In this document: positions 57,569 through 63,993 of the stretch, piece by piece
Layout: every line of letters starts with the position of its first letter
Numbering within the stretch: the stretch's first letter is position 1
DNA from: Jiella flava
GTDB taxonomy: Bacteria; Pseudomonadota; Alphaproteobacteria; Rhizobiales; Rhizobiaceae
NCBI RefSeq assembly: GCF_017349315.1
Contig: NZ_JAFMPP010000001.1
Location: forward strand, 434,001-498,000
Direction of reading: 5' to 3'
DNA length: 64,000 bases
Translations under genes and position numbers: made by a program
Notes under the pieces: generated by a model
What the model was told of the DNA's origin: nothing
The model's input: only the letters and a program-made list of their open reading frames with translations
Databases searched by the model: none

Positions 57569-58345
57569 TCAGCCCACGAGAATCGCGCAAGCCGCCGCGT
57601 GAAGCTCCGGCGTTGCCGCCGCGACGATGTCGCCGCCCTGTTCCGGCCGATCGCCGGAAATCGTCGTGACGACTCCGCCGGCCTGCTCGATCAGCGCGAT
57701 CAGGGCCGCGATGTCATAGGGCTTCAGACCACTCTCGACGACGAGATCCACATGGCCTGCGGCGAGCATGGCAAAGGCATAACAATCGGTGCCGTAGCGC
57801 GACAGCCGCACCGCGCCCTCCAGCGCCTCGAACCGCGGCAGCAGATCGCCGGAAAACAGCCGCGGCGAGGTGGTAAAAAGCGTCGCGCCCGCAAGCCGCT
57901 CGGCCTTGCGGGTCGCCAGTTGCTGCGGCGCGCCATCGCCCCGCTTCAAGAAGGCGCCCGCGCCATCGGCATAGAAGCGCTCGCCGGTGAACGGCTGAGA
58001 CATCAGGCCGAGCCGCGCCCGCCCCTCGACATAGTGGCCGACCAGCGTACCCCACACCGGCAGGCCGGTGATGAAGGCGCGAGTGCCGTCGATCGGATCG
58101 ATCACCCATTGGCGCAGATTGCCGGGGCGTTCGCCAAACTCCTCACCCAGGATGGCGTGATCGGGAAAGCGGGCCGCGATATGCGCCCGGATGGCCGTTT
58201 CAGCGGCGCGATCGGCCTCGGTGACCGGATCAAAGGCACCCGCCCCAAGCTTGTTGTCGACACCGCCGCCAGCGCGAAAGCGCGGCAGGGTCTCGCGGTC
58301 GGCAGCGTCGGCAAGCTCCAGCAAAAATGTGCTATCCGGCTCCAT
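57569..58345 (-). CDS. hisN: histidinol-phosphatase / inositol-monophosphatase family
   Basis: This 258-residue Mg-dependent phosphatase has the Li-sensitive fold: 'DPVTEADRAAETAI' near residue 38, 'ILGEEFGE' near 62, 'WVIDPIDGTRAFITGLPVWGTLV' near 78 and 'ESGLKPYDIAALIALIEQAGGV' near 205, matching HisN of the histidine pathway. The ATG at 58345 has GGAGG...AAGG upstream. A divergent small-RNA gene starts about 140 bases away. Suppressor-of-heat SuhB shares the fold, so an inositol phosphatase role remains possible. Confidence 0.88.
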   Translation of the reverse strand: MEPDSTFLLELADAADRETLPRFRAGGGVDNKLGAGAFDPVTEADRAAETAIRAHIAARFPDHAILGEEFGERPGNLRQWVIDPIDGTRAFITGLPVWGTLVGHYVEGRARLGLMSQPFTGERFYADGAGAFLKRGDGAPQQLATRKAERLAGATLFTTSPRLFSGDLLPRFEALEGAVRLSRYGTDCYAFAMLAAGHVDLVVESGLKPYDIAALIALIEQAGGVVTTISGDRPEQGGDIVAAATPELHAAACAILVG

Positions 58346-58408
58346 CACACCTTTCCCCCTCCGGTTTTTGCATAGAAAATTGCCAGAAATCCGACCTGCT
58401 GACATTTT

Positions 58409-58431
58409 GTTCACATGATTGTGATCTGAAC
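58409..58431. promoter_or_regulatory. dyad between hisN and the small RNA
   Basis: GTTCA (58409-58413) mirrors TGAAC (58427-58431), and TCACA (58411-58415) mirrors TGTGA (58420-58424). The nested dyad is located about 40 bases before the likely -35 element of the sRNA and upstream of hisN. It may bind a regulator of one or both. Confidence 0.4.
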
Positions 58432-58455
58432 AGGGTGAAAAAACAGTCAATGCCG

Positions 58456-58484
58456 TTGACATATTTGGCGGTGCAACATAGCTT
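58456..58484 (+). promoter_or_regulatory. sigma-70 type promoter candidate for the small RNA
   Basis: TTGACA at 58456-58461 is a perfect -35 element, rare in this GC-rich window. A -10 element about 17 bases later is weak (around CATAGCTT, 58477-58484). Transcription would start near 58488-58490. Confidence 0.55.
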
Positions 58485-58574
58485 CTGCATTGCGGCATCC
58501 GTTGCCGCTGCCCTTATGGGCGTTTCCTCCCTAGACTTCAAACCGCGCTGCCGCGAAGCAGTGCGGTTTTTTTT
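58482..58574 (+). ncRNA. small RNA of the suhB / alpha-r14 family (candidate)
   Basis: The region folds into three hairpins: GCGGCA-TCCGT-TGCCGC (58492-58508), GCCC-TTAT-GGGC (58510-58521) and a 12-bp terminator stem (58540-58551 with 58558-58569) followed by eight T. Between the second and third is an unpaired TTTCCTCCCT (58523-58532), complementary to Shine-Dalgarno sequences as in trans-acting rhizobial sRNAs. It is divergent from hisN, an inositol-monophosphatase-family gene, the setting that gave the alphaproteobacterial suhB RNA its name. I infer the family from setting and structure, not from an alignment. Confidence 0.65.
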
Positions 58575-58758
58575 GCGTCTTGGACGGGAAGCGCCGGCGC
58601 CATCGGAGTGTGCAAGGTGCGGCCCCGACGGGACCGCGCAAAAGAGCCAAGGCTCTAAGCCGAGCCCGCCTGACCGCCTGACCACCTGACCGCAAAAGAA
58701 AGCCCGATGCTCAGGCCAATGGATAGCGAGCTGTGCGTCCTGCCGGGCGCGTAGCGCG

Positions 58759-59646
58759 CTACTCCGCCGCCGCCGGGCGCGACTCGTCGGCGGCGACATC
58801 GGCGGCAAAACGCGCCACGAACCGCGCCAATTCCTCGCGCAAGAGCTCGAAGCCGCCATGGGGGCGAAATTCCCGCTCGTCGGCATAAAGCGATCGATTG
58901 ATCTCGATCTGGATGGCGTGCAGCCCGACTGACGGACGCCCGTAGTTTTCGGTGATATAGCCGCCGGCATAGGGCTTGTTGCGGGCGACATCGAAGCCGA
59001 AAGTGGTCAGATGCGCCGTCGCCATGGCGACCAGCCGGCTCGACGCACTGGTGCCGTAGCGATCGCCAATGACGATATGCGGGCGTCGCCCGCCCGGCAA
59101 CGCCCGGACGCTCGACGGCATCGAATGACAGTCGATGAGAATGGCAAAGCCGAACTGCTCGCGGGTGCGCATAAGCAGGCGCTCAAGCGCGGCATGGAAC
59201 GGCTTGTAAATCATCTCGATCCGCCGCAGCCCTTCCATCACGGACAGCGGCCGGCGGTAGATCTCCTCATTTTCGGCAACGATCTTCGGAATGGTGCCCA
59301 GCCCGCCGGCGACCCGCAGCGAGGTCGTGTTCACATAAGCAGGCAGCGCCTCGTCGAACATTTTCGGATCGAGCTCGAACGGCTCGCGGTTGACGTCGAG
59401 ATAGGCGCGCGGAAATCGTGCCTGGATCATCGGCGCGCCGAAGCCCGGCGCAAAGGCGAAGAGCTGGTCGACGAAGATATCCTCCGAGCGGCGAATGGCA
59501 TCGCGCCCGAGCCGTGTCGCCGCCAAAAGATCACGGGGATAATCCCGGCCGGAATGGGGCGAGCAGAACACGAACGGAATGGCTTGCTCCGACGGCTCGA
59601 TGACCTCGAACGCCGGGACGAGACCATCGCTCGTCTGCAATGTCAT
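58759..59646 (-). CDS. hutG: N-formylglutamate amidohydrolase
   Basis: This 295-residue zinc hydrolase of the HutG/FGase family releases glutamate from N-formylglutamate. The metal site residues are in 'CSPHSGRDYP' near 31, 'DCHSMPS' near 160 and 'HAIQIEINRSLYADE' near 240. The ATG at 59646 gives a normal N-terminus; a TTG four codons upstream is possible. It is divergent from cpdR, an arrangement common in rhizobia. No other hut gene is nearby, so a role in histidine degradation is not certain. Confidence 0.88.
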   Translation of the reverse strand: MTLQTSDGLVPAFEVIEPSEQAIPFVFCSPHSGRDYPRDLLAATRLGRDAIRRSEDIFVDQLFAFAPGFGAPMIQARFPRAYLDVNREPFELDPKMFDEALPAYVNTTSLRVAGGLGTIPKIVAENEEIYRRPLSVMEGLRRIEMIYKPFHAALERLLMRTREQFGFAILIDCHSMPSSVRALPGGRRPHIVIGDRYGTSASSRLVAMATAHLTTFGFDVARNKPYAGGYITENYGRPSVGLHAIQIEINRSLYADEREFRPHGGFELLREELARFVARFAADVAADESRPAAAE

Positions 59647-59813
59647 GACCTCGGCCAATCGCCCCCCTTTCCTGGCTCACGACCAAAAAATAGGGCCGAA
59701 GCCCGCAGCTCGCCAATTCCTTTTAGAAAATATTGGGCCTATCTGGTATGAAATTCGTGTAAGATCGCTGTGAGGAGCGAGCCGTTGGGGCCGGGCGAAT
59801 TCGGATTTTGGGA

Positions 59814-60179
59814 ATGACGAAGATACTGCTTGCAGAAGACGACAACGACATGCGCCGCTTCCTGGCCAAGGCGCTGGAGCGCGCCGGCTACGAGGTGATC
59901 GCTTTCGACAATGGCGGCAGCGCCTATGAGCGCCTTCGCGAGGAGCCGTTCTCCCTGCTCCTCACCGACATCGTCATGCCCGAAATGGACGGGATCGAAC
60001 TGGCCCGCCGGGCAACGGAGCTCGATCCGGATCTCAAGGTGATGTTCATCACCGGCTTTGCCGCAGTGGCCCTCAACCCCGATTCGAAGGCCCCGAAGAA
60101 CGCCAAGATCCTGTCGAAGCCATTCCATCTGCGCGAGCTGGTCGACGAAGTCGGCAAGATCCTCGAAGACGCCGCCTGA
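59814..60179 (+). CDS. cpdR: response regulator CpdR
   Basis: This 121-residue stand-alone receiver domain directs ClpXP proteolysis in the cell cycle. It starts MTKILLAEDDNDMRRFLAKALERAGY, with acidic residues at 9-10, the phospho-acceptor Asp in 'LLLTDIVMPEMDG' near residue 51 and the conserved Lys in 'ILSKPFHLRELV' near 102. In Caulobacter and Sinorhizobium CpdR is controlled by the CckA-ChpT relay. The ATG at 59814 is used; a TTG two codons upstream would add only two residues. Confidence 0.92.
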   Translation: MTKILLAEDDNDMRRFLAKALERAGYEVIAFDNGGSAYERLREEPFSLLLTDIVMPEMDGIELARRATELDPDLKVMFITGFAAVALNPDSKAPKNAKILSKPFHLRELVDEVGKILEDAA

Positions 60180-60526: not shown

Positions 60527-60601
60527 GGGCGTGTAGCTCAGCGGGAGAGCACTTCGTTGACATCGAAGGGGTCACAGGTTCAATCCCTGTCACGCCCACC
60601 A
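60527..60601 (+). tRNA. tRNA-Val (anticodon GAC)
   Basis: A complete 75-base cloverleaf: acceptor stem GGGCGTG / CACGCCC, D arm GCTC...GAGC, anticodon stem CTTCG/CGAAG with loop TTGACAT and anticodon GAC, variable loop GGGTC, T arm ACAGG-TTCAATC-CCTGT, discriminator A and an encoded CCA. It reads GUC (and by wobble GUU) codons. It stands alone next to cpdR, a usual place in rhizobia. Confidence 0.97.
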
Positions 60602-61152: not shown

Positions 61153-63993
61153 ATGCGCGATATGTCCGACCGATTGAGACCTCTCGCAATCCGGCTGTTC
61201 CGGCGTCGGACGTTTCACGTCATGCGCGGCGATCATGCCAATGCCGAGAAAAACTGGGCCGCTGCGATTGCCCATTATGAGAAGGCGCTGGCCATCGATC
61301 CCAGCCTGACGGCAATCTGGGTCCAGCTCGGACATGCGCGACGTGAAATCGGCCAAGACGAGCAGGCGACAAAAGCCTATCTTCGAGCGCTTCAACTGGC
61401 TCCTTTCGATAAGGCTAGCGCAAATTTACTCAATATTACCCGCGATTTGATCGAATCTCAGAGCAAATATCGCAAAAAAACTGAATTAAAACCGGTAGAT
61501 TATAAGAAATCAAATTATAATTACATAAGAAAATTTGCTTTAAACAGATCTCTTAGGCCACTTCACGGCGGACGTTATTTTGTCCGCGCCCTGATTTGGC
61601 TGGGTAACCGAGCCAATGCGGCCAAAGACTGGAAGGACGCGATCGAGTTTTACGAAAGAGCGCTCGCGATCAACGATGATCTGACTGCTATCTGGATTCA
61701 ACTCGGTCACATGCGACGCGAAGTCGGCCAATTCGCGACCGCTGAGACGGCGTATTTAAGGGCCCTCGAACTCGATCCGACCAACAATGACGCCAGATTT
61801 TTTCTCGGCGTGACGAGAGACGAGCTCGATCGCGATATCTGGGCCCCACCGGACGCGGTTCAGTCGGTCGACCTTCCCATCGAGGAGCCCGCAACCGGCA
61901 ATCCGGCATTGAGCTTCCCGTTCCATCCCATGCCGACGGCGGCAATTGCTTCGATCCCTCGCTCCGCCTCTCAGCCCGATCTGCCCAAGATCATGCTGGG
62001 CGATGTCGAACTCGGCGTTTACGACGGGGCCACGACTGTCCCCGTTGCCGGATGGTCGCGCATTACAGAGACCTTCAATCGTCTGAGTTTTTGTGACGCT
62101 TCGCTGACGATCGGCGAGCGCCATATCGAGTCTTCGCATGATGAGACAGAGGCGGCGATGGCGAGGGCAAGCGCCATTCCCGCGCAAAATGACCGTCTGT
62201 TTGAGACGCTCCCGGCAGATCTCGAATTATCAGATGTATGGTTCGTGAACGAGCGTCTGCTCCGGCTGCGATGGACCCCCACTTCAAGACAGGCGAGCGA
62301 TCGCGTCATCCGGATTTTCCAGCGATCGATTGCGGATCGGCACAAACTGCTCGTCTTAAGCGAGACGATCGTTCCGATGGATCAGACGGCGCTTTTGGAT
62401 TGCCGAACGGCCAATCCATTCATGCCGCTCCTCATCGCCATCTGCGATGCCGAACACCGACTCCTCGCTCTGGCGACACTGCCGTTTCCCTCCCTGTGCA
62501 GAGGTGGCGTGCATTTCGGTGAACTCCTCGCCGTGGAACCCCAGCGTCCCTATGTCGAGGCGCTTGAAACGCTCTCCAGCCTGCTGGCTGCGGCAGAAAC
62601 AGGACGCCAATCGCAATCACCGAAGATCGAGCGCATCGTCGTGGATCTCTCAGAGGCGACGGGGCGGGAGATGATTTTCTCGCCGGCATTGGTGGCTTGG
62701 CTTTGCCATGTCCTCAACATCCGCTTCGATTCGACCGGCGATCCGATCGCCGTCAACGACGCCATCGCGCGATATCGCGCCGCCGCCCTGGAGGGTCGCT
62801 CCGCCAATCCGGACCCATCACCTTCGACGCTCCACCTCCCCTCAGACGCCATTCCGTCGCTGCATAGTCTGCTGGACCGCCAGATCGTCGTGCAAACCGG
62901 CGAACATTGCGGTTCCTTCGTCCTGGCCAATCTTGCCGACGCGCAGCCCATCCTGGTCATCGCACCGCCGCTCTCGGAGGCCGCGCTCCCGTCCCAGACT
63001 CGTTCGCTGTTTCCCGTCATCTCGGCGTCAACGCCAACACCAACCGATGCAAACACCCCCTGCCAATCCAAGGCGCCGCTCGCCGTGCGGATGCGACGCA
63101 TCAGGTCTCCCATCGAGGCCGAGCTGTTGCGTCCTTTGGGACCCGAAATATCCACCCGCGAGATGGCAGCTCGGCTCGGCGGGGGATCTTTGCCGCCCTT
63201 GACCGTGATTTGCCGCTTCTCCGGCGACGAGCGTCGGCTGGCGGGGTGTATGGACGCGATCTTACTCCAGGAAGGGCTTGGCCCGGTCGAGGCCATCGTC
63301 GTCGCCGAGAAGACGGATCAAACGGCCGCAAGACGGGTCTTGGGCCGACTGTTTTCGAGCCGCGGCCAAATCGTCGACGATCGCTCGTCAAGACGCCATC
63401 CGCAGTGGTTCAAAGATGCCGCGCAGCTCGCCAAGGGCGACTTTGTGCTGATCCTCGACGACGATCTTCTCTTCCATGATTGCCGCACGCTCGCCGTCCT
63501 GATGGATATCGCCAGCCAGAGCAAAACCGCCTCGGCCAGTTGCATCCTCGTCGGGCCCACCGCCGCGACAAAAGTCGAGACCTATAGCATGATTTCGGCC
63601 GGCCGCGCTTCAGACGGCCTGGACGCCGAGGAAGCCGCATGGTCCTCATCTGAGACGATCGATGCGCTGTTGCATCTGCCTCCCGTCACCTGGCCGATCG
63701 CGGCAGCACCGACACATCCGATCGTGATGCGACGGGATATTTGGCAGCGAATCGAGCCCGCGCTGTCGCCGGCCGAAGGACCACCAGACGCAATTTCCCC
63801 TCAGAACCTGCCGGATTTCTGGCTTGAAGCCGGCCGCCTGGGGCTTCGGCACTACGTTACGACAACCGTGTCAGCGAGCGTCACCGATCGCGACGCGGCG
63901 CTCGCACGCGTCAGCGAAGCCGCATCCCTCGACTGGCCGCTGCCGCAGGACGGCCTTAAACAGTCCGTTCAGGTCCGGAGACTGGTCGCATGA
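61153..63993 (+). CDS. TPR-containing glycosyltransferase-like protein
   Basis: This 946-residue protein starts with two related TPR modules ('AIAHYEKALAIDPSLTAIWVQLGHARREIGQ' near residue 38 and 'AIEFYERALAINDDLTAIWIQLG' near 165), about 45% alike, joined by an AT-rich, basic linker near residues 98-135. A middle part of about 400 residues has no recognised fold. The C-terminus resembles GT-A (GT2) transferases: 'PPLTVICRFSGDERRLAGCMDAILLQEG' near 680 and a DxD-like 'LILDDDLLF' near 768. There is no signal peptide. The start lacks a clear ribosome-binding site; an in-frame ATG lies three codons later. It overlaps the next gene by ATGA, so they form an operon. Confidence 0.75.
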   Translation: MRDMSDRLRPLAIRLFRRRTFHVMRGDHANAEKNWAAAIAHYEKALAIDPSLTAIWVQLGHARREIGQDEQATKAYLRALQLAPFDKASANLLNITRDLIESQSKYRKKTELKPVDYKKSNYNYIRKFALNRSLRPLHGGRYFVRALIWLGNRANAAKDWKDAIEFYERALAINDDLTAIWIQLGHMRREVGQFATAETAYLRALELDPTNNDARFFLGVTRDELDRDIWAPPDAVQSVDLPIEEPATGNPALSFPFHPMPTAAIASIPRSASQPDLPKIMLGDVELGVYDGATTVPVAGWSRITETFNRLSFCDASLTIGERHIESSHDETEAAMARASAIPAQNDRLFETLPADLELSDVWFVNERLLRLRWTPTSRQASDRVIRIFQRSIADRHKLLVLSETIVPMDQTALLDCRTANPFMPLLIAICDAEHRLLALATLPFPSLCRGGVHFGELLAVEPQRPYVEALETLSSLLAAAETGRQSQSPKIERIVVDLSEATGREMIFSPALVAWLCHVLNIRFDSTGDPIAVNDAIARYRAAALEGRSANPDPSPSTLHLPSDAIPSLHSLLDRQIVVQTGEHCGSFVLANLADAQPILVIAPPLSEAALPSQTRSLFPVISASTPTPTDANTPCQSKAPLAVRMRRIRSPIEAELLRPLGPEISTREMAARLGGGSLPPLTVICRFSGDERRLAGCMDAILLQEGLGPVEAIVVAEKTDQTAARRVLGRLFSSRGQIVDDRSSRRHPQWFKDAAQLAKGDFVLILDDDLLFHDCRTLAVLMDIASQSKTASASCILVGPTAATKVETYSMISAGRASDGLDAEEAAWSSSETIDALLHLPPVTWPIAAAPTHPIVMRRDIWQRIEPALSPAEGPPDAISPQNLPDFWLEAGRLGLRHYVTTTVSASVTDRDAALARVSEAASLDWPLPQDGLKQSVQVRRLVA

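Follow-up and report, generated by a model that had tools for sequence, protein, structure and literature searches.

A single-copy alpha-R8 (suhB/MmgR) small RNA gene beside hisN in Jiella flava and its possible link to PhaR and carbon storage

The gap between hisN and an N-formylglutamate amidohydrolase gene of Jiella flava raises the question what kind of RNA is encoded there and which genes it might control. The initial annotation of the window (the whole stretch of 64,000 nucleotides that was analysed) had described a small RNA gene at this place, and the TTGACA hexamer, the three hairpins, the unpaired UUUCCUCCCU and the terminator with eight T were all recovered at 58456-58574 (Table 1). 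The predicted fold of the RNA (58489-58574) has -39.8 kcal/mol with a z score of -5.28, which was equalled by 1 of 200 shuffled sequences, and no Pfam match was obtained for the two open reading frames crossing the RNA (58327-58689 on the plus and 58332-58991 on the minus strand). The anti-Shine-Dalgarno stretch is exposed as had been claimed, but it is not a 'CCTCCC loop': the seed (58523-58532) is predicted to be single-stranded, as a linker that joins hairpins 2 and 3.

The reading that we favour, with a probability of roughly nine in ten, is a single-copy alpha-R8 gene with a seed that would be presented by Hfq and would block the translation of carbon genes, and with a promoter that would be repressed by PhaR. 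An RNA of about 85 nt would be transcribed from the TTGACA promoter and end at the T run, Hfq would present the unpaired stretch, and the seed would pair with G/A-rich ribosome-binding sites, so that the translation of genes of carbon uptake and carbon storage would be blocked. PhaR would repress the promoter until PHB granules titrate it away; thus we propose that the small RNA could act as a brake when the carbon stores fill.

Table 1. Features of the small RNA locus and its neighbours (positions in the window)
Feature	Position	Strand	Basis or remark
-35 element TTGACA	58456..58461	+	position read from sequence
Candidate PhaR (AniA) box 1, GGCGGTGCAACA	58467..58478	+	between -35 and -10; core GCGGTGC 58468-58474
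Putative weak -10 element TAGCTT	58479..58484	+	inferred from 17-nt spacing
Candidate second PhaR-type box, TGCATTGCG	58486..58494	+	over likely start point
Predicted alpha-R8/suhB/MmgR small RNA, ~85 nt	58490..58574	+	start inferred, +/- few nt
Hairpin 1, GCGGCA-TCCGT-TGCCGC	58492..58508	+	fold
Hairpin 2, (U)GCCC-UUAU-GGGC(G)	58509..58522	+	fold
Unpaired seed UUUCCUCCCU (written TTTCCTCCCT), alpha-R8 10-mer, anti-Shine-Dalgarno	58523..58532	+	fold
Rho-independent terminator, 12-bp stem	58540..58574 (stem 58540-58569)	+	pattern scan and fold
T run, eight T	58567..58574	+	sequence
hisN, histidinol-phosphatase, inositol monophosphatase family	57569..58345	-	TIGR02067; divergent from RNA
N-formylglutamate amidohydrolase family gene	58759..59658	-	PF05013; convergent with RNA
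cpdR-type cell-cycle response regulator	59808..60179	+	NF046022 over cut-off; just beyond amidohydrolase gene

The locus is a member of the alpha-R8 (suhB/MmgR/SisA) family. The suhB covariance model, which had been named beforehand as a check, gave a match over threshold: RF00519 suhB, described in Rfam as mmgR, was found at 58503-58581 with 64.9 bits versus a gathering score of 41 (E-value 4.3e-11 in the whole window and 4e-13 in a 601-base subregion), and this copy is the single RF00519 match of the genome. Alpha-R8 RNAs are characterized by a weak hairpin that is followed by a single-stranded UUUCCUCCCU, and by a terminator, and in most species one copy adjoins an N-formylglutamate amidohydrolase gene (PMC12559287), which is a published hallmark of these loci; the seed after a weak hairpin, the terminator and the amidohydrolase neighbour are all present here. 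SisA-D of Caulobacter crescentus share the identical 10-mer, the preceding weak hairpin and the terminator, and sisA adjoins the same type of neighbour, although Caulobacter has four copies and Jiella flava one. MmgR of S. meliloti belongs to the same Rfam family, has three stem-loops and a promoter box between -35 and -10, and its published length of 77 nt is in the size class of the RNA predicted here; its host is a symbiont, in contrast to the Jiella/Aurantimonas-type bacterium of this study. Eleven Rfam matches in the 601-base region (mir-8932, STnc180, CC0196 and others) were dismissed as lying far under their cut-offs.

The suhB half of the proposed 'suhB/alpha-r14' label is thereby confirmed, while the other half merges two families, since MmgR is alpha-r8 and NfeR1 is alpha-r14, with AbcR as alpha-r15 (PMC7143759). 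Membership in alpha-r14 or alpha-r15 would have been conceivable from the common anti-Shine-Dalgarno chemistry: NfeR1 and AbcR1/2, likewise from Rhizobiales, have CU-rich motifs and three hairpins, and AbcR is partly homologous to suhB (PMC7143759). Both were ruled out on the published descriptions, by which the two families were set apart and according to which NfeR1 carries the motif unpaired in all loops and AbcR has two CU-rich motifs (PMC7143759), whereas CCTCCC occurs once in 58456-58574 and stands in the linker rather than in all three loops. Furthermore the synteny is of the alpha-R8 type, the loci of NfeR1 and AbcR1/2 being different, and in the 64-kb window suhB and one tRNA are the only families over the Rfam gathering score; we regard this alternative as extremely improbable.

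The divergent inositol-monophosphatase-family gene noticed at the outset was confirmed as hisN (294 bits to TIGR02067 versus a cut-off of 275.15), in the arrangement in which the suhB RNA was originally discovered in A. tumefaciens (PMC2873474). Its start was taken as ATG 58345, the profile aligning from residue 5, and an in-frame ATG further upstream (58498) is unneeded by the profile. Among 51 distinct loci the opposite-strand neighbours included the amidohydrolase gene in 45, hisN in 42 and both in 40, the remaining cases being a pool of prematurely ending contigs or stretches and perhaps of true absences. The suhB model matched at E <= 0.001 in 53 of 61 genomes and over the cut-off in 43 (own genome included); all 10 genomes of the genus have a single match, and many genomes outside it have two to eight. 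A 28-base clade pattern returned 18 named stretches in a contig search, 14 of them from Jiella or Aurantimonas; the amidohydrolase is closest to that of loci L009/L039 of Jiella endophytica (81%), and the values for HisN were 80% in L009/L039 and 81% in L099. In some relatives with multiple suhB copies, close pairs were seen (e.g. G023, G018:C24, G026:C4, G054:C45).

The promoter starts on the strand opposite to hisN, 111 bp ahead of the start adopted for that gene, and such proximity could point to a cis-acting leader or to antisense control of hisN. The RNA gene, however, points away from hisN, shares no bases with that gene as read and has a terminator of its own, and neither the amidohydrolase neighbour nor the extra copies in other genomes fit a hisN-specific element, so this explanation is judged very unlikely.

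Copies of the alpha-R8 gene were compared after scanning 88 loci for the exact GTTTCCTCCCT pattern; 27 loci without it were excluded (all in L103-L133, mostly weaker or second copies), and the 64 copies in 61 loci were reduced to 54 distinct ones, with subsets of 46 and 17 analysed further. Conservation of the GTTTCCTCCCT stretch in the 54 copies and invariance of the 10-mer in the 46 are no test, since the copies were selected by this pattern. In the Rfam structure of RF00519 the first seven positions are unpaired, yet the same positions form the 3' arm of hairpin 1. A stem of at least 6 pairs stands directly before hairpin 2 in 44 of the 54 distinct copies, in very different sequences, and the mean fold z of this region is -2.4 (z < -1 in 47/54), although in the copy of the window alone hairpin 1 is unremarkable, an equally long stem being found in 18% of shuffles (z -1.6). 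In the 17 close relatives (16 distinct rows) 98.6% of the cells of the three-hairpin structure are paired, versus 30.8-68.2% when the structure is slid. Changes on both sides were recorded in 4 of 22 pairs, three of them in hairpin 1, which is 100% paired with both-side changes at 3 of its 6 pairs; these double changes comprise only 5 cells, and hairpin 2 is invariant. This 5' hairpin, which covaries and is absent from the Rfam structure, is an addition to the anatomy of the family.

The promoter was only partly as first described. The TTGACA is perfect, yet the -10 element is poor, as no sigma-70 promoter passed the threshold of the pattern scan at the small RNA gene. A sigma-54 (-24/-12) promoter at TTTGGC...TAGC, considered by eye, was dismissed because of the wrong spacing. 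Between the two elements lies candidate box 1, with two departures from TGCRNYGCASMA, the PhaR consensus of B. diazoefficiens (PMC6201568). EMSA experiments show that PhaR of S. meliloti binds to the promoter of mmgR, at a site that holds TGCACCGCA (PMC12542648), compared with GGCGGTGCA in Jiella flava, and a review points to a dyad that is conserved between the -35 and -10 elements of mmgR (PMC8401924). The promoter dyad is already published, and the box is known for S. meliloti mmgR without having been published as a defining trait of the whole family; new here are the second zone and the altered box 1 of the genus, both described below.

Of the 54 promoters, 47 contained GC-RNY-GC in the zone from 80 to 28 bases ahead of the seed, versus 8.5 +/- 2.4 in shuffles (maximum 16), and the longer YGCRNYGCR in 37 of 54 versus 3.8 +/- 1.8. 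RNY filled GC-N3-GC in 64 of 72 cases in the promoter zone against 159/576 and 197/590 in the flanks. A TTGACA-like hexamer (at least 4 of 6 matches) precedes the GC-RNY-GC core by 4-7 bp in 39 of 54 copies, and the first PhaR-type zone is occupied in 40 of 54, the second one, which covers the probable start point, in 29. These patterns make PhaR control of the alpha-R8 promoter likely across the family. In two genomes with an over-cut-off RNA and without a PhaR match (G058, G025) the best copies (L019, L113) have no upstream GC-RNY-GC, and no amidohydrolase or hisN match was found in the available DNA of L019.

The phaR gene is present in the Jiella flava genome, and by analogy with S. meliloti mmgR the promoter is probably repressed by this PHB sensor. 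On the DNA pattern, PhaR control of the Jiella flava copy in particular is uncertain: in all 10 genomes of the genus box 1 reads GGC-RNY-GCA, the outer T of TGC being changed to G while the second core is retained, and box 1 was not among the sites obtained when the own genome was searched for the exact PhaR 12-mer, by which this control is perhaps weak or lost here. The first PhaR-type core is lost in L037 and L038 (Aurantimonas). The genus-wide base change, together with the weak TAGCTT and the promoter's absence from the scan, might suggest a relic, that is an intact gene with a promoter decayed in this lineage and with little RNA made. Among close relatives, however, the TTGACA, the spacer layout, the hairpins and the terminator are kept, and the complete pairing of hairpin 1 despite its changes is not expected from decay; a relic is accordingly unlikely in our judgement.

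The alpha-R8 family is thought to block the translation of metabolic genes. In Caulobacter the SisA 10-mer pairs upstream of the start codon of CCNA_03574 and represses it, the pairing being proven by compensatory changes, and further regulated targets have predicted pairing, with Hfq involved (PMC12559287); targets of SisA-D include TonB-dependent receptors. By analogy with SisA, the Jiella flava RNA is likely Hfq-dependent and trans-acting, with its 10-mer covering ribosome-binding sites, and the suggestion of a broad translation regulator is compatible with the published SisA regulon (PMC12559287). An hfq gene is present in the genome. There AGGGAGGAA-N1-10-ATG occurs 12 times versus 0 for the reversed pattern, and AGGGAGGA-N2-11-ATG 35 times versus 1. 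Recognisable products stand behind 10 of the 12 AGGGAGGAA sites: four periplasmic sugar- or solute-binding proteins, a PDH-E1-beta-type subunit, a class I PHA synthase, PanB, a formate-dehydrogenase-alpha-like protein, a universal stress protein and a DUF1467 protein. For the 298-aa protein of another site (L081) NCBIfam gave no match at 1e-10, and the site in L090 precedes a 46-aa frame.

The start of the own PHA synthase gene, phaC, carries the full 10-base seed complement AGGGAGGAAA (its frame is truncated in L089, while the complete gene exceeds its profile cut-off). The cut-off was passed by phaC in 47 genomes, a set that does not include G001, whose broken-up phaC scores under it. All but G045, in which a contig end cuts the gene, were read, giving 46 cases (from 30 loci and 16 further stretches); 3 had no start, and the starts, chosen by Shine-Dalgarno score for phaC and controls alike, numbered 43. 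Seed complements were found there as AGGGAGGA in 10, GGGAGG in 20 and GGAGG in 27, counts which are dependent events across related species; AGGGAGGA occurred in G030, in G032 and, within the genus, in 8 of 9 genomes that were read, and the full 10-mer complement in two only (G000 and G009). Neither AGGGAGGA nor GGGAGG was found at the amidohydrolase (0/45) or HisN (0/45) starts. Among 119 own-genome control starts, a non-random set since it was drawn from the window and from loci fetched by the PhaR pattern and hfq, AGGGAGGA was seen in 0 and GGGAGG in 3, and by duplex energy 3 of these 119 equal or surpass phaC in their pairing with the seed. Seed-complementary sites are therefore far commoner at phaC starts than in three control genes, although this excess is weakened by the overlap of the sites with the ordinary Shine-Dalgarno, which is subject to selection in its own right: among starts with GGAGG, the surplus of GGGAGG is modest (20/27 phaC starts versus 3/10 controls, p 0.02).

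It follows as a prediction that phaC may be a direct target of the alpha-R8 RNA. This is a concrete, unproven one, as no direct MmgR target had been described according to a review of 2020 (PMC7143759), and phaC/phbC mRNA is not named as such in the published MmgR passages among the matches listed. S. meliloti mutants lacking the MmgR core contain 20% more PHB (PMC8401924), a surplus that direct action on phaC would account for. The sites at phaC are a testable hint that the RNA helps control this carbon-storage polymer. The phasin mRNAs, on the other hand, were rejected as direct seed targets, with GGGAGG and AGGGAGGA in 0 of 28 ribosome sites (30 loci, one per matching genome, 2 without a start; the own second phasin was left out, and the start of the shorter L208 is less sure). 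PhaR-type boxes stand upstream of 27 of these 28 starts (L180-L209), often two of them about 30 bases apart. In S. meliloti PhaP proteins rise with unchanged mRNA (PMC8401924), and the phasin null result counts against a simple reading of these data; the rise could be indirect.

We therefore advance, tentatively and with somewhat less than even confidence, a model in which the PhaR circuit would have a post-transcriptional arm, namely the alpha-R8 RNA: PhaR itself would act on phasin genes through DNA, and the PhaR-repressed RNA directly on the mRNAs of phaC and of sugar-binding proteins. If it is true, phaC would be the direct target that explains the higher PHB of S. meliloti mmgR mutants. 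The locus adds a clean single-copy member to a widespread alphaproteobacterial RNA family that controls carbon storage and the shifts from feast to famine, and phaC is a specific target predicted for it.

Elsewhere in the window, the tRNA gene at 60527-60598 (plus strand) is the sole other Rfam match over its cut-off, and a 946-aa open frame at 61153-63993 (plus strand) has tetratricopeptide repeats in its first part and no family assignment for the remainder, its 16 Pfam matches being all to repeat families.
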